In this document: piece by piece, positions 11,673-21,808 of the stretch
Layout: the number at the start of each line of letters is the position of its first letter
Numbering within the stretch: the first letter of the stretch is position 1
Assembly: GCA_937949525.1 (NCBI GenBank)
Contig: CALEDT010000017.1
Span: forward strand, 1 to 64,000
Length of the DNA stretch: 64,000 nucleotides
Direction: 5' to 3'
DNA from: an uncultured Burkholderiales bacterium
GTDB lineage: Bacteria; Pseudomonadota; Gammaproteobacteria; Burkholderiales; Thiobacillaceae
Notes under the pieces: generated by a model
Databases searched by the model: none
What the model saw: the letters and a program-made list of their open reading frames with translations, nothing else
What the model was told of the DNA's origin: nothing
Program-made: the position numbers and the translations under genes

Positions 11673-11831
11673 CCGTTCCTCTTGGGACAGCCAGTCGAGA
11701 GTCGGGAATGGAACGTTGGGCGCAAAGCCGGCCGTTCGCGGTGTCACCGCGCCTTACGCTCCACTTTCGACTCCCGGCTACGTTGCATCAGCCGGGAGCA
11801 GGTCCGGCGCGCCGGACCGCCGAGACCAAGA

Positions 11832-12167
11832 TCAGATGCAGCCGGTCGGCTTGGGCAGGCCGGCGATCTTGCACGCCTGCTTGGCGGGGCCGTAGGGGAA
11901 CAACTCGTACAGGTACTTGTTGTTGCCCTTGTCGGCGCCGAGCTTCTTGGCGATGGCCTTGGTCAGCACGCGAACGGCTGGGGCGATCTGGTACTCGTCG
12001 TAGTATTCGCGCAGGAAGTTGACCACTTCCCAATGCGCGTCGGTCATGTCGACCTTTTCTTCCTTGGCCAGGTAGTCGGCGACTTCCTGGTTCCAGTCGG
12101 CCAGATTGGTCAGATAACCCTCTTCGTCGACTTCGATGGACTTGCCGGCAACTTCAACCATAGGCAT
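11832..12167 (-). CDS. dsrC: DsrC, sulfur-carrier substrate protein of DsrAB and DsrK
   Basis: This 111-residue protein carries the full DsrC C-terminal arm: two cysteines ten residues apart (CKIAGLPKPTGC), the second penultimate. These form the trisulfide or persulfide that carries sulfur between DsrEFH, DsrAB and the DsrK subunit. The AAGGAG ribosome site six bases before ATG 12167 decides the start (MPMVEVAGKS). It is the active DsrC; compare the cysteine-free paralog at 17012-17344. The 159-bp gap to dsrM is the largest within the first part of the operon. Confidence 0.96.
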   Translation of the reverse strand: MPMVEVAGKSIEVDEEGYLTNLADWNQEVADYLAKEEKVDMTDAHWEVVNFLREYYDEYQIAPAVRVLTKAIAKKLGADKGNNKYLYELFPYGPAKQACKIAGLPKPTGCI

Positions 12168-13271: not shown

Positions 13272-13310
13272 TTAAATATCCCTATCTCCGATTATCCAAA
13301 TCACCCATGA

Positions 13311-13328
13311 CCCGGGGATTTCCCCGGG
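13311..13328 (-). promoter_or_regulatory. Intercistronic hairpin after dsrB
   Basis: CCCGGGGA and TCCCCGGG form a perfect 8-bp stem with a 2-base gap, 7 bp after the dsrB stop codon. No T-run follows on the minus strand, so it looks more like an RNA-stabilising or partial-termination element than a full terminator. Confidence 0.5.
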
Positions 13329-13335
13329 CGGGCAT

Positions 13336-14489: not shown

Positions 14490-15791
14490 TCAGGCGGCGG
14501 CCTGCTTGCGCTCGAACCACTTCTCGGCTTCCTCGTCCCAGCCGTCGGTACGCACGTACGGGTTGGTGCGGGGGTGCACGATCATGTTGGGATCGACGTC
14601 GATGTCCAGACCTTCGAGGAAGTTGACCAGACCGATGCGCTCGATCATTTCGCCGGTGCGCTCATGCTCCAGCGCATTCTCGGCGAAGAAGTCGAGGATG
14701 TTGCGCGCCAGATCGTTGAGTTTCTCGAAGTCCTCGTCGGATTCCAGCTTCATGAACGGAATGATCACGGTACCCATGGTGGCACCGATCTTCAACACGC
14801 CCTTGCCGCCGACCAGAATGGTGACGCCCTTGTCTTTGCCGGGCAGCAGCGCGCCGGGCATCACGTTCAGGCAGTGCATGCAGCGTACGCAGTTGTGGTT
14901 GTCGATCTCCAGGCAGTGCTCGTCGGACAGCGCGACCTTGGTGATGCCTTCGCCGGCCGGTGCGCCATCGTTCTTCTTCAGTTGGATGGCCTTGGTCGGG
15001 CAGTGATTGACGACCATGTTGATGGTGTCTTCGATGCCGTGGGCGGCGTACCACTCGCGCGCCAGCTTCTCGTCGGCACGGATGCTGTCACGCCAGGTGC
15101 CGATGGTGGCCATGTCGGAACGCTGGATGGCGTTGACGCAGTCGTTCGGGCAGCCGGAGAACTTGAACTTGAACTTGTACGGCAACGACGGACGGTGCAT
15201 GTCGTCCAGATTGTTGTTGATCACGGTACGCAACGCGCGCGCCTCGTCGAAGCAGGACATCTCGCAGCGCGCGGCGCCGACGCAGGACATGGAGGTGCGC
15301 AGGGCGGGACCGGCGCCGCCAAGGTCGAAGCCCATTTCGTTCAGCTTGTCGAACGAACGCTGCACGTCCTCGGTCTTGATGCCCTGGAACATGATGTCGC
15401 CGGACTGGCCGTGGAACGCAATCAGTCCGGAACCGCCGGTCTCCAGCCAGGCATCGCACATCTGGCGCAGCAGGTCGGAGGTGTAGTGCATGCCGGCCGG
15501 CGGCTGGATACGCAGGGTGTGGAATTCGGCAGCCTCGGGGAACATCGGCTTGCCATTGGCATCCTTCAGCTCGGTGAAGCGCGGAATGACGCCACCACCG
15601 TAGCCGACGACACCGACGGTACCACCCTTCCAGTAACCGAACTTGGTCCGGTAGGAGGTTTCCAACTGCCCCATCAGGTCGACCATCATGTCGTTGTCGT
15701 TGGCCAGGCGCTTCAGTCCGGTGACGAACGACGGCCAGGGGCCCTTCTCCAGCTCATCCAAATTGGGGGTGTCGATCATTTGTTTAGCCAT
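14490..15791 (-). CDS. dsrA: DsrA, alpha subunit of reverse dissimilatory sulfite reductase
   Basis: This 433-residue protein has the siroheme-cluster cysteines in CVGAARCEMSC and a ferredoxin domain with CVRCMHCLNVMPG. It pairs with DsrB. The start is the ATG giving MAKQMIDTPNL, preceded by AAGGAGA; the frame extends 16 codons further upstream without support. As first gene of the dsr cluster it lies next to the divergent control region. Gene content (dsrEFH, dsrL, no dsrD) indicates the oxidative type. Confidence 0.97.
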   Translation of the reverse strand: MAKQMIDTPNLDELEKGPWPSFVTGLKRLANDNDMMVDLMGQLETSYRTKFGYWKGGTVGVVGYGGGVIPRFTELKDANGKPMFPEAAEFHTLRIQPPAGMHYTSDLLRQMCDAWLETGGSGLIAFHGQSGDIMFQGIKTEDVQRSFDKLNEMGFDLGGAGPALRTSMSCVGAARCEMSCFDEARALRTVINNNLDDMHRPSLPYKFKFKFSGCPNDCVNAIQRSDMATIGTWRDSIRADEKLAREWYAAHGIEDTINMVVNHCPTKAIQLKKNDGAPAGEGITKVALSDEHCLEIDNHNCVRCMHCLNVMPGALLPGKDKGVTILVGGKGVLKIGATMGTVIIPFMKLESDEDFEKLNDLARNILDFFAENALEHERTGEMIERIGLVNFLEGLDIDVDPNMIVHPRTNPYVRTDGWDEEAEKWFERKQAAA

Positions 15792-16059
15792 CTGTCTTTC
15801 TCCTTGAAGTCTGAACCACAGGGTGTCGCCATCGATCACACAGCACCTTCCCGCCGGGGATGCGCCCGCACGGTATGAGTCCGTACATATTAGGGAGTGC
15901 TAATCCCGCCATCCATCATTCCGATGGGGTAAACGCATCATTCGCTCGGGTAGCCCCCAACCTACCCGATCGGGTAGGCGCGCTTTAATCCCGAAGGGCG
16001 TGCCTATACCTGAGTGGAAATGTCAGATAATCAGCACATCAATACATAACTGAATCATT
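15792..16059. promoter_or_regulatory. Divergent control region between dsrA and the plus-strand cluster
   Basis: These 268 bp contain no gene and drive two opposite transcripts. The strongest element is a perfect 18-bp palindrome at 15961-15978 (CCTACCCGATCGGGTAGG); its half TCGGGTAG recurs alone at 15946-15953. A second inverted repeat, ATTAG-N6-CTAAT, lies at 15889-15904. Candidate -10 hexamers are TAATAT on the minus strand (15887-15892, toward dsrA) and GATAAT on the plus strand (16026-16031); neither has a clear -35 partner, which would fit activator-dependent promoters. Confidence 0.6.
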
Positions 16060-16311
16060 ATGGACCAGATCACCTCGCTTGCGAAGTTTCGCAACCCCTA
16101 CGGCAACCAGGAGATCGAACTGCAGGACGTACGCTATGCGGCCGGGGGTACGCCCATGCTGCGGCTGCGCATCCGTGAACGCGGCGCGCGTTTCACCATC
16201 TTCGATGTCGATCCGGTGACCGCGCGTTACTGGGCCGAGCAGATGCTGCACTGGGCCGCGCCGCTGGCCGACGCCGCCGAAAAGCCGGAATCGGCGCCCG
16301 ACGGGGAGTGA
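16060..16311 (+). CDS. Small conserved-looking protein of unknown function
   Basis: This 83-residue, charged, soluble protein has no signal peptide or membrane segment. The first 65 residues look like a small beta-rich domain (EIELQDVRY...PMLRLRIRE...RFTIFDVDP) followed by a helix (ARYWAEQMLHWAAPL) and a disordered tail. I do not recognise a characterised family with certainty. It is first in the plus-strand cluster facing away from dsrA, ends 3 bp before the Cas6-like gene, and is therefore almost certainly co-translated with it. The position suggests a partner of that protein. Confidence 0.8.
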   Translation: MDQITSLAKFRNPYGNQEIELQDVRYAAGGTPMLRLRIRERGARFTIFDVDPVTARYWAEQMLHWAAPLADAAEKPESAPDGE

Positions 16312-16314
16312 GCC

Positions 16315-16968
16315 ATGCGCATGTACAACCCCGAGTGGGAAGCGATCAAGCGTTTCGAATACACGCCGCGTTTCAAGGACGTGCAGTTCGAGCTCGCCGG
16401 CCTGGAGATCCCCGCCGACCACGGCGCCGCACTGTATGAGGAGATCGCCCGGCTGCTGCCGTGGCTGCGCGACACGCCGGAGGCGGGCATCCATCCGGTG
16501 CACGGGGCGCCCAGCGGACGCAATGCCAACCTGGTCATCAATCGTCGCGTCCGGCTGGTGCTGCGCCTGCCGGTGGCGCGCGTGGATGCGGCCGGCGAAC
16601 TGGTCGGCCAGGCGATCGATCCGGGTGCCGGACCCATCACCATCGGCGCCTTGAAAGAGAAAGCGCTGACGCCATATGGCACGCTGTATTCGCACTTCGT
16701 CGTCTACGGCACCGAGGACGAGGCGGAATTCCTCGACCGCGCCCATGCCGAACTGGAGCGCATGGGTGTGGCGGCCGGCTTGATTCCCGGCAAGCGGCGG
16801 CAAATGCATACCCCCAACGGGGTTATTGGCGGATACAGCCTGATGCTGCACGATGTCGGCCTGATGCAGTCCCTGAGCCTGCAGGAGAACGGTATCGGTC
16901 TGCATCGCGGTTACGGGTGCGGCATCTTGATTCCGCACAAATCGATCAAGGAAGTGCCCATCGGCTAA
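16315..16968 (+). CDS. Cas6/Cmx6-like RNA-binding or endoribonuclease-family protein, no CRISPR nearby
   Basis: This 217-residue protein matches my memory of the Cas6 family annotated as Cmx6 (type I-MYXAN). It has FELAGLEIPADHGAAL and LLPWL near the N-terminus, RRVRLVLRLPVARV in the middle, and a C-terminal glycine-rich segment SLSLQENGIGLHRGYGCG (187-203 region) followed by PHKS. Cas6 proteins cut CRISPR precursor RNA at repeat hairpins. Here there is no array, cas1 or interference gene in the window; the neighbours are sulfur-transfer genes. Candidate catalytic histidines are H36, H60 and H63. Its substrate may be a cellular RNA, or it may have lost nuclease activity. Homology is from memory, not from a search. 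Confidence 0.8.
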   Translation: MRMYNPEWEAIKRFEYTPRFKDVQFELAGLEIPADHGAALYEEIARLLPWLRDTPEAGIHPVHGAPSGRNANLVINRRVRLVLRLPVARVDAAGELVGQAIDPGAGPITIGALKEKALTPYGTLYSHFVVYGTEDEAEFLDRAHAELERMGVAAGLIPGKRRQMHTPNGVIGGYSLMLHDVGLMQSLSLQENGIGLHRGYGCGILIPHKSIKEVPIG

Positions 16969-17011
16969 CCCCCGGCGGGCGGGTTGACAACACGTGAAAC
17001 AGGAGAAAACC

Positions 17012-17344
17012 GTGGGATACGTTTTGAACGGCGAAGAACTCGAAGTGGATGACGAGGGCTTTCTGACCGAGGCCAACTTCAGTGACGAGATCGTGCCGGT
17101 CATCGCCGAAGCCGAGGGCATCACGCTGACCGACGAACACTGGCAGGTCATCAACTACATGCGCGACAAGTACCGCGAGGACGGCCACACCCCCAATTTC
17201 CGCAACATGGTGGCGGAGATGGATGAACTGCACCCGGGCGTCGACTGGAAGAAGAAGCTGTACGAACTGTTCCCCAAGCAACCCAACCGCCAGTCCGCCA
17301 AGGTGGCCGGCCTGACCAAGCCGTTCGGCAAGGGTGGGTATTGA
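17012..17344 (+). CDS. DsrC/TusE-family paralog lacking both C-terminal cysteines (RspA-like)
   Basis: This 110-residue protein aligns end to end with the DsrC at 11832-12167 (LNGEELEVDDEGFL, DEHWQVINYMRDKY, KKLYELFP). In the C-terminal arm, where DsrC has CKIAGLPKPTGC, this protein has AKVAGLTKPFGK, so both redox cysteines are gone and it contains no cysteine at all. It therefore cannot carry sulfur the way DsrC or TusE does; cysteine-free members have been called RspA and proposed as regulatory. The GTG start at 17012 is decided by AGGAGA at 17001-17006; a GTG six codons earlier lacks a ribosome site. It follows the Cas6-like gene by 43 bp. Confidence 0.9.
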   Translation: MGYVLNGEELEVDDEGFLTEANFSDEIVPVIAEAEGITLTDEHWQVINYMRDKYREDGHTPNFRNMVAEMDELHPGVDWKKKLYELFPKQPNRQSAKVAGLTKPFGKGGY

Positions 17345-17367
17345 GGCGGGCTGGTAGCCGGTAACCA

Positions 17368-17395
17368 CTTGGGGCGCGCATCGCGCGCGCCAAGG
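17368..17395. terminator. Imperfect hairpin after the DsrC-like gene
   Basis: CTTGG(G)GCGCGC pairs with GCGCGCCAAG around ATCGC, with one bulged G, between the DsrC paralog and the sulfurtransferase. No T-run follows, so it may only slow transcription. Confidence 0.35.
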
Positions 17396-17430
17396 CAGGA
17401 GCCACCCGCTACGCGTTGCCCGCTACGACC

Positions 17431-18279
17431 ATGTTCACCAACACCCTCGTCACCACCGAAGATCTGGCACGTCATCTGGACGACCCCAACTGGGTCGTGT
17501 TCGACTGCCGTTTCACCCTGACCGATCCCGAGGGCGGACGGCAGGCTTATCTGAAACATCATGTTCCCGGCGCCCATTACGTCCACCTGGACGAGGATCT
17601 CGCGGCGCCGGTCAGCGCATCCAGCGGGCGTCATCCGCTGCCCGACGCGCAGACCTTCGGCGAAAAGCTGTGCCGCTGGGGCGTCGGCGTCAACAAGCAG
17701 GTGGTGGTGTACGACGACAGCTACGGCGCCATGGCTGTGCGCATGTGGTGGATGCTGCGCTGGCTTGGGCACCCCGGTGTGGCGCTGCTCGACGGCGGTT
17801 ACCCCAAATGGATGCGCGAGATGCGTCCCGTCACCGCCGACCTGCCGCAGACGCGCAAGGGCAACTGCGCCTGCCTGCCCGAGCCCAGTCAGATCGTCGA
17901 CGCCGACGACGTGCTGCGCGCCAGCACCAATACCGATTTCCTGATCATCGACGCGCGTCCGGAACGGCGTTTCACCGGCGAGTACGAGCCGCTCGACCCA
18001 GTGGCCGGCCATATTCCCGGCTCCATCAACTGGTCGTTCGAGGAGAATCTGGACATCGACGGCACCTTCTTGCCGCCGGAGGCGCTGCGCGAGAACTTCC
18101 AGGCGCTGCTCAAGGGCCGGCCGCCCTGGCGGGTCATCCATACCTGCGGCTCGGGCGTGACCGCCTGCCATAACCTGCTGGCCATGGAAATCGCCGGCCT
18201 GCCCGGCTCGCGCCTGTACCCCGGTTCCTGGAGCGAGTGGATCCGCGACCCGGCGCGACCCGTGGCCACGGGCGAATGA
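17431..18279 (+). CDS. Two-domain rhodanese sulfurtransferase, 3-mercaptopyruvate type
   Basis: This 282-residue protein has an inactive N-terminal rhodanese domain (residues 1-135) and an active C-terminal one with the loop CGSGVTAC, whose first Cys carries the persulfide. CGSGV(T/S)A loops are typical of SseA-type 3-mercaptopyruvate sulfurtransferases, whereas classical thiosulfate rhodaneses often use CRKGVTA. There is no signal peptide, so it is cytoplasmic. The ATG at 17431 was preferred over an upstream TTG. Beside dsr and a DsrC paralog it is a natural donor of persulfide sulfur, but the acceptor is unknown. Confidence 0.92.
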   Translation: MFTNTLVTTEDLARHLDDPNWVVFDCRFTLTDPEGGRQAYLKHHVPGAHYVHLDEDLAAPVSASSGRHPLPDAQTFGEKLCRWGVGVNKQVVVYDDSYGAMAVRMWWMLRWLGHPGVALLDGGYPKWMREMRPVTADLPQTRKGNCACLPEPSQIVDADDVLRASTNTDFLIIDARPERRFTGEYEPLDPVAGHIPGSINWSFEENLDIDGTFLPPEALRENFQALLKGRPPWRVIHTCGSGVTACHNLLAMEIAGLPGSRLYPGSWSEWIRDPARPVATGE

Positions 18280-18294
18280 TCGAGGAGTACGAGC

Positions 18295-18879
18295 ATGGCG
18301 CTGCGCGTCAAGACCGTCTGGTTCAAGAAAGAAGGTGAACGTCCTGCCGACGAAATCGCCACCGTATTGGCCTCCACCATCTGGCGTCTGGCCGACAAGG
18401 CGGTGGACAACCTGTCCAAGGCCAACTTCGACATCGTCACGCCGCAGCGCGGCTTCCGCATCATCGCCGAGTTGACCGCCTTCCTGGTGCACTACGTCGA
18501 CCGCCTGGCCTACGGCCGTCTGGCGGAGGACAAACGCTACGCGCTGGTCAGCGCAGTCGGCCTGCGGCTGGCCGAGATCATGGAACAGAACGTGCTCGAC
18601 TTCACCGGCGGCCGGCGCGATCCGGATTACGACTACCGCCAGGGCTACATCGACCGGCTCAACCAGCGCATGACCGACTACGCCGAGTTCGAGTTTCCGC
18701 AAGACAAGGCCAGCTTCCAGGCATTGCGCTTCCTCAGTCTGATGATCCGCGAGGACATGCTGGAATCCGACCAGAGCTGGATCCAGGATCAACTGATGGA
18801 CATCGAACTGCCGGAAATGATGGGCATGGTCAGGAAGAACATGGATGGTTTCTACCCGGTCAAGGGCTACGACGCCTGA
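18295..18879 (+). CDS. Soluble helical protein of unknown function
   Basis: This 194-residue, mostly alpha-helical cytoplasmic protein begins MALRVKTVWFKKEGERPADE. It has no cysteine cluster, signal peptide, membrane helix or known catalytic motif that I can see. Long amphipathic helices (IIAELTAFLVHYVDRLAYGRL, RFLSLMIREDML) suggest a protein-protein interaction role. It starts 15 bp after the sulfurtransferase with GAGGAG upstream, so it is in the same operon. I do not recognise the family. Confidence 0.82.
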   Translation: MALRVKTVWFKKEGERPADEIATVLASTIWRLADKAVDNLSKANFDIVTPQRGFRIIAELTAFLVHYVDRLAYGRLAEDKRYALVSAVGLRLAEIMEQNVLDFTGGRRDPDYDYRQGYIDRLNQRMTDYAEFEFPQDKASFQALRFLSLMIREDMLESDQSWIQDQLMDIELPEMMGMVRKNMDGFYPVKGYDA

Positions 18880-18913
18880 ACGATCAGGCTCTACCCGTTC
18901 GCCGTTGCCCGCC

Positions 18914-19846
18914 ATGATTCCGCGCCACTCCCCCTTCCACCCCGACAACGATGCGGGCTATCAGGCATGGCGCGCGGCCAAGCTGGAGGGTTATCCGCAA
19001 CGCGGCGAAGACCTGATCGTCGAGGTCGCCAATCCGCACCAGTTGACGGCCGGCGAGTATGACGCGCTGTGGCGGCGCATCGCCAAGACCAACATGGCGA
19101 TCTACGCCACGCGTCTGGGCGAGCGCGAGGACAAACGGGCCGTGAGCGCGCTGGCGCGCCAATTCGACCTGAAACGGCTGGATGCCAACTGGCTGGCCGA
19201 CGAGGACGGCATTTCCAGCCTGACGCCGCGCGACGACGACGTCAGTGAGCCGGGCAGCCGCCCCGTCGGGCAGGATCCGGGCAAGCGCGGTGACTACATC
19301 CCCTACACCCACCACCGCATCCGCTGGCACACCGATGGCTACTACAACCCGCCCGAACGCCGCATCCTGGCGATGACGCTGCATTGCGTGCGCCAGGCCG
19401 ACACCGGTGGCGAGAACGATCTGCTGGACCACGAGCTGGCCTACATCGCGCTGCGCGATGCCGATCCGCAACACATCCGCGCGCTGATGGCCGCGGACGC
19501 CTTGACCATCCCCGCACGCGTGGACGAACAGGGCACCGCGCGCGACGACGAAACCGGCCCGGCGCTGCTGGTGGCGCAGGACCGCCTGCACCTGCGCTAC
19601 ACCGCGCGCACCAGGAGCATTGCCTGGAAACAGGATGCCGCCACGCAGGCCGCGCTAACCGCCCTCGAGGCCGTGCTGACCGGTCCGACACCGGGCGTAT
19701 TCACGCTGCGTCTGGAGCCCGGCATGGGTCTGATCTGCAACAACGTATTGCACACGCGCGCCGGTTTTCAGGACCGCCCCGAGCATCGGCGCCTGCTGTA
19801 CCGCGCCCGCTATTACGACGCGCTGCGCGATCTGCGCGCGGCCTGA
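18914..19846 (+). CDS. TauD/TfdA-family Fe(II)/2-oxoglutarate-dependent oxygenase
   Basis: This 310-residue protein has the metal-binding HxD motif in IRWHTDGYY (residues about 138-146) and the distal His in LHTRAGF, followed by a basic residue cluster for 2-oxoglutarate. Such enzymes hydroxylate small molecules, for example taurine to release sulfite; the substrate here cannot be read from the sequence. The start MIPRHSPFHP is the ATG at 18914, 35 bp after the unknown gene, and earlier in-frame codons overlap that gene. It closes the plus-strand cluster and is convergent with the NarL-like gene. Confidence 0.86.
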   Translation: MIPRHSPFHPDNDAGYQAWRAAKLEGYPQRGEDLIVEVANPHQLTAGEYDALWRRIAKTNMAIYATRLGEREDKRAVSALARQFDLKRLDANWLADEDGISSLTPRDDDVSEPGSRPVGQDPGKRGDYIPYTHHRIRWHTDGYYNPPERRILAMTLHCVRQADTGGENDLLDHELAYIALRDADPQHIRALMAADALTIPARVDEQGTARDDETGPALLVAQDRLHLRYTARTRSIAWKQDAATQAALTALEAVLTGPTPGVFTLRLEPGMGLICNNVLHTRAGFQDRPEHRRLLYRARYYDALRDLRAA

Positions 19847-19901
19847 ATGGCTCTCGTCAACGGCGCCCACGCGGACTACGGACCCGCGCGTGGACGGGTG
19901 C

Positions 19902-20570
19902 TCAGCCCTTGCGCCCGACGTCGATACCCGGCGTCAGCCGGTTCTCGACCGCGAACACGGCGGCCTCCACGCGCGATGACAGGTTCAGCTTGGCCAGGAT
20001 GTGACGCACATGCAGTTTGACCGTGTCGTAGCTGATGTCGAGGGCGCGCGCGATGGCCTTGTTGCTCTCGCCCCTGGCCAGGTGGCTGAGGATCTCCCGC
20101 TCACGCTGGGTCAGCGACTCCAGCAGTGAGGTGCTGCTGGTGTTCTTGCTGTCGAGCAGGCGCACCAGCTTGGCGGTCATGGCCGGCGCCACCACCGACT
20201 CGCCGCGTGCCGCGCGCTGGATGGCGTCGACCAGTTCGTCCGGCTCCATGCTTTTCAGCAGATAGCCGTTGGCGCCGGAGCGCAGCGCGCGCGCCATGTC
20301 CTCCTCCGCCTCGCTGACGGTCAGCAGCAACACCGGCAGCGTGAAGCCGTCACGACGCAGATCCTGCATCACCAGGATGCCGTCGGTACCGGCGATGTTC
20401 AGATCCAGCAGCAGCACATCGGGCGCGTGCCGGCGCAACAGCGCGGCCACCTCGCCTGGATCGCCGGTGATGGCGTCGACATGCACCAGATCCTCACGCT
20501 CCAGCAGTTCCGCCAGGCCCTTGCGGAACAGGGTGTGGTCGTCCACCAGAACCACATGCAGCGCGCTCAT
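19902..20570 (-). CDS. NarL/FixJ-type response regulator
   Basis: This 222-residue protein has an N-terminal receiver domain (acidic pair near 10-11, phospho-Asp in LLLDLNIAG, Lys in YLLKS) and a C-terminal LuxR-type helix-turn-helix (LTQREREILSHLARGESNKAIARAL, given here only as landmarks LTQRE and NKAIA). It overlaps the upstream kinase gene by four bases (ATGA), so the two form a two-component pair. The targets are unknown; proximity to dsr makes redox or sulfur control possible but unproven. Confidence 0.93.
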   Translation of the reverse strand: MSALHVVLVDDHTLFRKGLAELLEREDLVHVDAITGDPGEVAALLRRHAPDVLLLDLNIAGTDGILVMQDLRRDGFTLPVLLLTVSEAEEDMARALRSGANGYLLKSMEPDELVDAIQRAARGESVVAPAMTAKLVRLLDSKNTSSTSLLESLTQREREILSHLARGESNKAIARALDISYDTVKLHVRHILAKLNLSSRVEAAVFAVENRLTPGIDVGRKG

Positions 20571-21808
20571 CGCGTGTCCTCCACACCTTGGCGGGCGGGG
20601 AAGCTCAGGCGCACGATGGTGCCGCCGGCCGGCCGGCTCTCGATGGTCAACGTGCCGCCCAGCTTGGCGGCACGCTCGCGCATGATGGTCAGGCCAAAGC
20701 TCTTGCCGACGTTGCTCATGGCGCCGCCCGGCAGGCCGACGCCGTCGTCGGCGACGTTGACCACGTACTGGTTGTCGTGCAGATCCAGGGTCACCACCAC
20801 GTGGCGCGCGCGCGCATGCTTACAGATGTTGTACAGCGACTCCTGGATGATGTGGAACACCTGAATCTCCTCTTCCGGCGTGAGCACCACATCCTGCGCC
20901 ACGTTGAGGAAATCGACGTCGGCATTGGCCTTCTTGGTGAAGCTCTCGGCCATTTCCTGCAAGGCTGGCACCAGCCCCCGCGGATCGATGCGGTCGCGAA
21001 ACTGCGTGATCAGGTTGCGCAGTTCGGAATAGGCCATGTCCACCGCCTCCTCCACCTCGCCCAGGTAGCGGTTGGCGCGTTCCTGATCGCCCAAGGCCAG
21101 CGATTCGTTCAACACGGTCAGCCGCATCTTGGCGTAGGCCAGGGTCTGCGCCAGCGAATCATGAATCTGGTTGGCCAGCATGGTGCGCTCGTTCATCAGC
21201 GAAATGCGCATGTTCTCGCGCGTCAGGCGCGCGTTCTCCAGCGCCATGCCCAGATGTTCGCTGATCGAGTTGAACAGGTAGCGGATGTCCTCGGGCAACG
21301 GTTCCGGGTTGTCCATGAACATGTTGTACACGCCCAGCACCTTGCCCTTGTGGCGCAGCGGCACGGCGTAGACGGTGCGGCATTGCTGGGCGAAGTAGAT
21401 GTGGCGCACCTGCTTCTGGCACACCTCCATGACGCTGTCGCTGTGCGCGGCGTGGGTCAGCGTGGCCTTGCCGCAGATGCCACATTCCAGCGGCACGTAG
21501 CGCTCCTTCTCCACCAGCGCCGCCGACAGGCCGATGGAGCCGATCATGCGCAGATGCGCGCCATCGGCGGTGAGCACGCGCACCGCACCGGCCTTGGCGC
21601 GCGAGATGCGCACCATGATCTCGAGGAAGCGCATCAGCATCTGCTCCGTGTTGGCTTCGGAGTTCATGCTGCTGGCGATCTCGGCCAGCACCTCGATGAC
21701 CGGCAAGCGGTCGCCGCGCACATCGGCGGCGCGGGTGATGGCATCCAGGGGAATGTGTTGCGCGTGCACGGCGGGCACCGGTGGCTGCGTTGACACGATG
21801 TTAATCAA
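20567..21808 (-). CDS. NarX/NreB-type sensor histidine kinase with a cysteine-containing GAF domain
   Basis: This is a protein of about 409-413 residues. A GAF domain spans about residues 55-195, a HisKA_3 dimerisation helix carries the phospho-His in NQIHDSLAQ (H216), and a C-terminal ATPase domain ends with GLTIMRERA and GGTLTIES. There is no membrane segment, so it senses a cytoplasmic signal. The GAF domain carries four cysteines at about 109, 112, 130 and 143 (CGIC...C...C), a possible iron-sulfur or redox site. The frame opens with TTG (21808); a GTG four codons later (21796) is an equally weak start, and neither has a clear ribosome site. Confidence 0.9.
   Translation of the reverse strand: MINIVSTQPPVPAVHAQHIPLDAITRAADVRGDRLPVIEVLAEIASSMNSEANTEQMLMRFLEIMVRISRAKAGAVRVLTADGAHLRMIGSIGLSAALVEKERYVPLECGICGKATLTHAAHSDSVMEVCQKQVRHIYFAQQCRTVYAVPLRHKGKVLGVYNMFMDNPEPLPEDIRYLFNSISEHLGMALENARLTRENMRISLMNERTMLANQIHDSLAQTLAYAKMRLTVLNESLALGDQERANRYLGEVEEAVDMAYSELRNLITQFRDRIDPRGLVPALQEMAESFTKKANADVDFLNVAQDVVLTPEEEIQVFHIIQESLYNICKHARARHVVVTLDLHDNQYVVNVADDGVGLPGGAMSNVGKSFGLTIMRERAAKLGGTLTIESRPAGGTIVRLSFPARQGVEDTR

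Follow-up and report, generated by a model that had tools for sequence, protein, structure and literature searches.

Why should a gene for a Cas6-like protein, which matches models of clustered regularly interspaced short palindromic repeats (CRISPR) systems, stand beside the genes for sulfur oxidation? The question is raised by a stretch of 64,000 nucleotides (contig CALEDT010000017.1, positions 1 to 64,000; hereafter the window) from an uncultured bacterium of the Thiobacillaceae, whose genome of 2.68 Mb in 64 contigs is 100% complete. The window carries a minus-strand cluster of reverse dissimilatory sulfite reductase (Dsr) genes, and divergent from it lie six plus-strand genes (16060–19846) that encode, in this order, a DUF6967 protein, the Cas6-like protein, a DsrC-like protein, a rhodanese, a helical protein and a TauD-like oxygenase. 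Purple sulfur bacteria, thiobacilli and numerous thiotrophic symbionts oxidize sulfur through the reverse Dsr pathway, whose components are regarded as known. We find that the Cas6-like protein belongs to the Cas6 family, shows no association with Cas1 and is a near-constant companion of dsrA in the Gammaproteobacteria; we tentatively suggest that it binds RNA and may tune sulfur-oxidation transcripts.

Family, Fold and Conserved Residues of the Cas6-like Protein

The Cas6-like protein scores above the curated cut-offs of both PF09559 (180.8 bits; cut-off 26.7) and TIGR02807 (Cmx6; 138.4 bits; cut-off 98.85), and the latter, an NCBI model, would label it a CRISPR protein. Its AlphaFold2 model (predicted local distance difference test, pLDDT, of 90) finds the best Foldseek match in 8fcj_B, the Cas6 of a type I-B CRISPR-associated transposon (CAST), with a template-modeling (TM) score of 0.82 and an E-value of 1.9e-18, followed by other Cas6 entries with lower TM scores. 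The same chain is also the best solved relative by sequence (E 7.3e-17).

An alignment of 152 sequences, 151 of them distinct, reveals that a histidine at residue 36, which forms part of a PxDH motif, is kept in 149 sequences. The alignment and a nearby place in 4c97, an entry titled as the H37A mutant, indicate that this is likely the catalytic histidine. The Gly-rich loop is present in the window protein as ENGIGLHRGYGCG, with glycine columns conserved at 97–99% across the alignment, and two arginines (R79 and R85, 152/152) and a glutamate (E137, 150/152) are kept as well. The protein terminates in a PHK end and lacks the SGNGW stretch that is typical of many gammaproteobacterial homologues. 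Six Cmx6 proteins of cyanobacterial plasmids, five of them encoded beside cas3, have the DH motif and the loop in common with it and possess neither the second histidine nor the PHK end. A tree rooted on these six separates them from the 152 dsr-type sequences, with a support of only 0.25. The sixth plasmid gene, from Gloeobacter morelensis (L211, 7968–8759), carries a type I-MYXAN Cas6/Cmx6 annotation; no further cas gene is annotated within 8 kb of it, and a cupin and a PAPS-reductase-family gene lie nearby.

The Cas6-like gene is under purifying selection in close pairs. The ratio of nonsynonymous to synonymous substitution (dN/dS) amounts to 0.08–0.19 in 13 listed close pairs (dS 0.28–0.64), to 0.27 in the closest pair (dS 0.09) and to 0.42 in a further listed pair (dS 0.65); across 370 pairs, which were not gap-aligned and are partly saturated, the median is 0.23.

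Coupling to the dsr Genes

In a sample of 369 genomes of Gammaproteobacteria, PF09559 was detected in 118 (87 of 272 genera) and dsrA (TIGR02064) in 119. The limit of E < 1e-30 for dsrA was set so as to retain split genes, and 112 of the 119 exceed the curated cut-off. The two genes occur jointly in 111 genomes, that is, in 111/118 carriers and 111/119 dsrA genomes (Fisher p = 7e-75, a value inflated by common ancestry). Among the seven carriers lacking dsrA, the contig breaks off at the module or a little upstream of it in five (G127, G153, G187, G246 and G377), a dsrA stretch lies alongside by profile in G378, and G359 is unexplained. The eight dsrA genomes lacking the Cas6-like gene include five with a contig break inside dsrA or at most 2 kb upstream (G130, G139, G170, G183 and G267) and a sixth, G298, broken likewise as far as the fragment shows; G271 extends more than 10 kb upstream of dsrA with no Cas6-like gene, and G414 is unclear. 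Judged from these contig coordinates, the true concordance may be higher. Because the gene accompanies dsrA so regularly, including in five carriers of 1.0–1.1 Mb (G099, G202, G315, G347 and G410) that have dsrA and no Cas1, it is unlikely to be idle.

Gene order was read in 112 of the 118 carriers (the class loci). A divergent dsrA lies within 5 kb of the Cas6-like gene in 79 of them and another dsr gene in one, 12 loci end within 2.5 kb, and 20 have no dsr gene upstream; in 19 of these 20 genomes dsrA is located elsewhere. A distance-matrix analysis of co-inheritance (Cas6–TauD r 0.61, Cas6–DsrA 0.42, Cas6–DsrC-like 0.32, Cas6–DsrB 0.06) was not used, because the control pair DsrA–DsrB reached only 0.23, below the permutation maximum of 0.39.

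The arrangement is tightest among the relatives of the window. A scan of genome contigs yielded 32 close loci with a Cas6-like protein of 45–80% identity, and the order DUF6967–Cas6–DsrC-like–rhodanese is kept in all 32. The helical protein and TauD are each found in 31 (one contig ends first), and dsrA is divergent in 30, the other two loci ending at most 2.5 kb upstream of the Cas6-like gene. Profiles bear out the first-pass annotation in its description of six tightly spaced plus-strand genes in an operon facing away from dsr. With dsrA starting near 15791 on the minus strand, the start chosen here, both operons have one intergenic region in common. Eight loci hand-picked from more distant members of the window's family and order, one of them on the same contig as L049, all carry the Cas6-like and DsrC-like genes; the rhodanese is present in six and DUF6967 in seven, the eighth locus ending just past the Cas6-like gene. 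The Cas6-like gene was found in 36 of 61 relatives searched.

Relation to CRISPR and Mobile Elements

Constant company of a CRISPR locus, which the first-pass annotation had held would speak against its proposal of an RNA-sulfur module, was not observed, as judged from cas genes; no search for arrays was made. Cas1 (PF01867) occurs in 135 of the 369 genomes, in 50/118 carriers versus 85/251 others (p = 0.13), so that 68 carriers lack it, the window's genome among them; there, all matches to Cas3 profiles also remain under the cut-off. No cas family was found among the other seven genes scanned beside the Cas6-like gene (PADLOC was run on six genes), so that the cas3/cas8a1/cmx8 neighbours and adaptation genes expected of type I-MYXAN were not found among these genes. 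A CRISPR-linked Cas6 was rejected on the lack of Cas1 association and on the absence of Cas1 and of an above-cut-off Cas3 from the window's genome. A phage origin found no support in 50,697 phage records (no match at E 0.01) or in a viral-contig scan, which gave no confirmed relative. A plasmid origin was likewise rejected, the only six plasmid matches being the cyanobacterial Cmx6 genes described above, of which all except that of Gloeobacter stand beside cas3.

The DsrC Paralog

DsrC and TusE both use a penultimate cysteine. The true DsrC of the window's dsr cluster ends in TGCI, whereas its paralog in the divergent operon contains no cysteine, as the first-pass annotation had noted, and ends in KGGY where true DsrC has TGC(V/I). 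Among 140 loci with a profile match, the best match ends in KGGY in 131 and is a true DsrC in nine. The penultimate cysteine is absent from all 131 KGGY proteins, with glycine at that position; over the last 112 residues, 110 are free of cysteine and 21 contain one, which is never the penultimate residue. Cysteine-free is therefore rejected as a rule for the family. The KGGY proteins of L108 and L112 retain the upstream cysteine position of DsrC.

In 86 of the 112 class loci, the KGGY gene follows the Cas6-like gene at a distance of at most 500 nt and on its strand; it stands elsewhere in the locus in five and is missing from the locus in 21. Of these 21 genomes, 11 encode one elsewhere and 10 show no intact copy. 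Among 15 genomes of the class searched that lack dsrA, only one gave a match, which does not reach the end of the profile. The rhodanese lies at most 2 kb downstream of the Cas6-like gene in all 32 close loci and in only 7/112 class loci. The neighbourhood on which the first-pass annotation had focused is thus conserved beyond close relatives as a Cas6/DsrC-like pair, while the triple with the rhodanese is mainly a feature of the window's relatives.

A 2014 review of DsrC by Venceslau et al. reportedly names cysteine-poor relatives. DsrC homologues without the two cysteines were described outside the dsr operon in the Solemya velum symbiont (PMC4287430), and three additional DsrC-like proteins in Thiodictyon (PMC5944118), so that such proteins have been seen before.

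Distribution Beyond the Class

A sample of 319 genomes from the phylum contained dsrA in 52 and PF09559 in four. These four, all dsrA-positive, comprise the window's genome, one from its family and two others from its order. The remaining 48 genomes with dsrA lie outside the class and lack PF09559; within this sample, the Cas6-like gene is confined to the class. Fourteen of the 48 dsr regions were read. Five show the oxidative arrangement (dsrE, dsrC, dsrM and dsrK) and are taken for Alphaproteobacteria; the remaining nine, in which most of these four genes are not nearby, may be reductive. TauD lies beside dsrA in four of the five oxidative-type loci, the fifth having about 1 kb of upstream sequence, and a KGGY protein is encoded elsewhere in all five genomes. 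Both genes are thus of broader distribution than the Cas6-like gene, and the KGGY protein was rejected as its exclusive partner.

Features of the Locus and Other Operon Genes

The features of the locus are collected in Table 1.

Table 1. Genes and sequence elements of the Cas6-like operon and the adjoining reverse-dsr cluster in the window.
Feature	Position	Strand	Evidence or remark
Palindrome, perfect, CTACCCGATCGGGTAG	15962–15977		Intergenic region common to dsrA and the operon
DUF6967 small protein, 83 aa	16060–16311	+	PF22295, 99 bits
Cas6-like protein, 217 aa	16315–16968	+	PF09559 / TIGR02807
DsrC paralog, 116 aa, 0 Cys, C-terminus KGGY	16994–17344	+	PF04358, 110 bits
Two-domain rhodanese resembling 3-mercaptopyruvate sulfurtransferase	17416–18279	+	PF00581; start codon uncertain
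All-helical protein, 194 aa, no known family	18295–18879	+	No Pfam/NCBIfam match; predicted model
TauD-family Fe(II)/2-oxoglutarate oxygenase, corresponds to dsrQ	18914–19846	+	PF02668
dsrA, first gene of divergent reverse-dsr operon	14490–15791	-	TIGR02064, 500 bits
True DsrC of dsr operon, both cysteines, ends ACKIAGLPKPTGCI	11832–12167	-	Comparison for cysteine-free paralog

The palindrome occurs once in the genome, even when two mismatches are allowed, and its exact string is found in 16 of 36 leaders from the window and its relatives; the leader as a whole is conserved. It is a likely operator for a dsr-specific regulator. The leader gives a signal of "structure" on both strands, as expected from DNA palindromes, and an Rfam scan of positions 15000–20600 returned nothing near a gathering score.

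DUF6967 was counted near the window by tblastn, since the iterated profile had been contaminated by one long frame of L112; by profile it is found in none of the 112 class loci, and tblastn finds one in L126. The rhodanese, which starts at a TTG at 17416 or at an ATG a few codons further, scores 148.6 bits against NF008557, under the cut-off of 250. The helical protein has no match in Pfam (E up to 1) or NCBIfam, belongs to a family of 84 sequences found with dsr in many Gammaproteobacteria, and occurs in the locus on the same strand in 44/112 class loci; its model (pLDDT 85) yielded no fold relative, the best PDB match reaching E 0.074. TauD, for which a start at 18914 is likelier than one at 18845, is encoded on the strand of the Cas6-like gene, at most 3.5 kb away, in 77/112 class loci. 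Most class loci with TauD have it ahead of the Cas6-like gene; in the window it closes the operon. According to PMC7596348, the name dsrQ for a TauD-like gene upstream of dsr goes back to Lenk et al. 2012.

Further genes recur around the operon. A LuxR-type response regulator and a GAF-domain histidine kinase (19902–21808, minus strand) converge on it in the window, and such a pair is also found nearby in several close relatives. Across the class (L143, L116, L183 and other loci), conserved neighbours without a Pfam match comprise a protein of 241 aa encoded just ahead of the Cas6-like gene (44/112 loci), one of 76 aa (a cluster of 52 class loci into which other frames are mixed) and one of 64 aa (39 class loci). 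Two further Fe(II)/2-oxoglutarate oxygenases, one of them of the PKHD type, lie downstream of the Cas6-like gene in many Gammaproteobacteria (L154, L118 and others), mostly on the opposite strand, so that the region can hold three such enzymes.

Proposed Role and Alternatives

We tentatively favour, with somewhat less than even confidence, a reading in which a Cas6-family protein left CRISPR and joined the oxidative Dsr pathway in Gammaproteobacteria, where it would bind a specific RNA and, most likely, cleave it as an endoribonuclease, thereby tuning sulfur-oxidation transcripts. The protein is probably still an RNase. In many species, though not in all, the DsrC paralog would be its regulatory partner, acting as a non-reactive regulator instead of a sulfur carrier and binding at the docking sites of DsrC or to DNA. 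Besides the coupling to dsrA, the lack of association with Cas1, the predicted fold, the conserved residues and the purifying selection, two published observations were counted in favour: transcripts of dsrEFH and dsrC are significantly higher than that of dsrA in A. vinosum on sulfide (PMC3397948), and DsrC binds DNA upstream of dsr (PMC5944118). RNA-level control of sulfur oxidation, one of two roles floated by the first-pass annotation, stands as the preferred reading, although no RNA target was found for it. The fuller version, in which a former CRISPR processing enzyme would control the whole reverse-Dsr regulon as an RNA endonuclease, often with a DsrC "sensor or decoy" whose KGGY arm replaces the sulfur-carrying arm, is possible and rather doubtful.

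Several results weigh against the proposed role in RNA control. The search for a substrate among the hairpins of the dsr transcript and in the Cas6-to-DsrC-like gaps was negative. A GC-rich hairpin between dsrB and dsrE (13272–13335, minus strand), followed by a conserved stretch before dsrE, occurs with a varying stem in all 30 listed gaps of the window and its relatives (one record entering twice); among 26 gaps measured, z < -2 is reached in 13, and stems of at least 8 occur in 23. The corresponding gap in Cas6-positive Gammaproteobacteria has a median of 23 nt, with 22/69 reaching 30 nt and six of these 22 at z < -2; being mostly confined to the window's relatives, the hairpin was rejected as a target. 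Strong hairpins between dsrC and dsrM (11676–11831, minus strand) were rejected because they also occur in reverse-Dsr loci without the Cas6-like gene: z < -2 was obtained after dsrC in 48/66 Cas6-positive and 3/4 Cas6-negative Gammaproteobacteria and in 3/5 loci outside the class. The dsrA–dsrB gaps, too, score in loci lacking the Cas6-like gene (4/5 outside the class). The Cas6-to-DsrC-like gaps reach z < -2 in 0/29 close and 16/80 class loci and have no word in common except those resembling ribosome-binding sites. Moreover, the likely catalytic histidine is absent from three of the 152 sequences (L096, L108 and L113), two of which are relatives within the window's order, and 8fcj_B, which keeps the second histidine (GIHP), has asparagine at the first position; cleavage may therefore have yielded to plain RNA binding. 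Since reverse-Dsr genomes outside the class lack PF09559, the protein is not required for reverse Dsr as such.

The main rival regards the Cas6 fold as a protein scaffold with no RNA function, serving the DsrC paralog, DsrAB or another Dsr protein. The place of the Cas6-like gene directly upstream of the KGGY gene in most class loci would suit such a role, as would the PHK end, which is absent from the six plasmid Cmx6 proteins and from 8fcj_B and could form a new interface; the empty-handed hairpin and gap searches also point this way. A scaffold would not, however, require the retention of the likely catalytic histidine and the Gly-rich loop, and the KGGY gene is missing from 21/112 class loci and present, with no Cas6-like gene, in reverse-Dsr genomes outside the class. 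We regard this explanation as unlikely.

It is still less probable that the divergent operon constitutes an accessory sulfonate/sulfite module, in which DsrQ would free the sulfite of sulfonates, with a minor regulatory role for the Cas6-like protein. Published speculation on TauD/DsrQ (PMC7596348), the frequency of TauD in the class loci and its presence beside dsrA outside the class speak for it, but 35/112 class loci have no TauD within 3.5 kb, some through contig ends, and such a module leaves the DsrC paralog's conserved C-terminus without a role.

In RNA thiolation, the other role floated by the first-pass annotation, persulfide from the rhodanese would pass through the DsrC-like protein, in the manner of TusE, to an RNA presented by the Cas6-like protein. 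The similarity of DsrEFH/DsrC to TusBCD/TusE (PMC3397948) and the rhodanese of all close loci speak for this proposal, which is nevertheless disfavoured and very improbable, because the DsrC-like protein lacks the penultimate cysteine throughout and the arrangement can do without the sulfurtransferase. Processing of CRISPR RNA in trans from arrays elsewhere, with an incidental position beside dsr, draws on family membership and on the 50/118 carriers with Cas1, and is largely refuted and extremely improbable, given that the gene tracks dsrA and not Cas1, that 68/118 carriers lack Cas1 and that the window's genome has neither Cas1 nor an above-cut-off Cas3.

Significance

Full-text searches turned up no published description of the Cas6–dsr link, with most subscription papers, including that of Lenk et al. 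naming dsrQ, outside their coverage. Passages of PMC10952691, PMC5728499, PMC5944118, PMC8889020 and PMC8226683 name cas6 only in the context of CRISPR, and those of PMC10504309 mention neither CRISPR nor TauD. The Cas6-like gene beside dsr points to an unstudied, perhaps RNA-level, side of bacterial sulfur oxidation. If the protein acts on RNA, it would add a post-transcriptional layer to the pathway and represent a Cas6 with a stable life outside CRISPR; an adopted RNA endonuclease would mean RNA-level control of a major biogeochemical pathway. The locus also cautions that a lone Cas6 match is poor evidence of CRISPR.

Comparison with Known Systems

The window protein resembles the Cas6/Cmx6 of type I-MYXAN in passing the curated cut-offs and in the DH motif and Gly-rich loop that they have in common. 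Among solved structures, it is closest in sequence and predicted fold to the Cas6 of the type I-B CAST (8fcj), with which it shares the second histidine (GIHP). Unlike both, its gene has no cas gene among the scanned neighbours, and the PHK end and the coupling to dsr set the window-type protein apart from the six plasmid Cmx6 proteins and from 8fcj_B. The DsrC paralog belongs with true DsrC in PF04358 (110 bits) and is similar to it in length and core motif (LFP, Q, AGL), but lacks both C-terminal cysteines. It falls within TIGR03342, the family that includes TusE, with 82.8 bits over a cut-off of 53.5, whereas it attains only 77.5 against the TusE equivalog cut-off of 191 and lacks the penultimate cysteine of TusE. 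The oxygenase corresponds to DsrQ as a TauD-family protein encoded divergently from dsrA, and differs in its place: DsrQ is encoded ahead of the Cas6-like gene in most class loci that have TauD, and at the end of the operon in the window.

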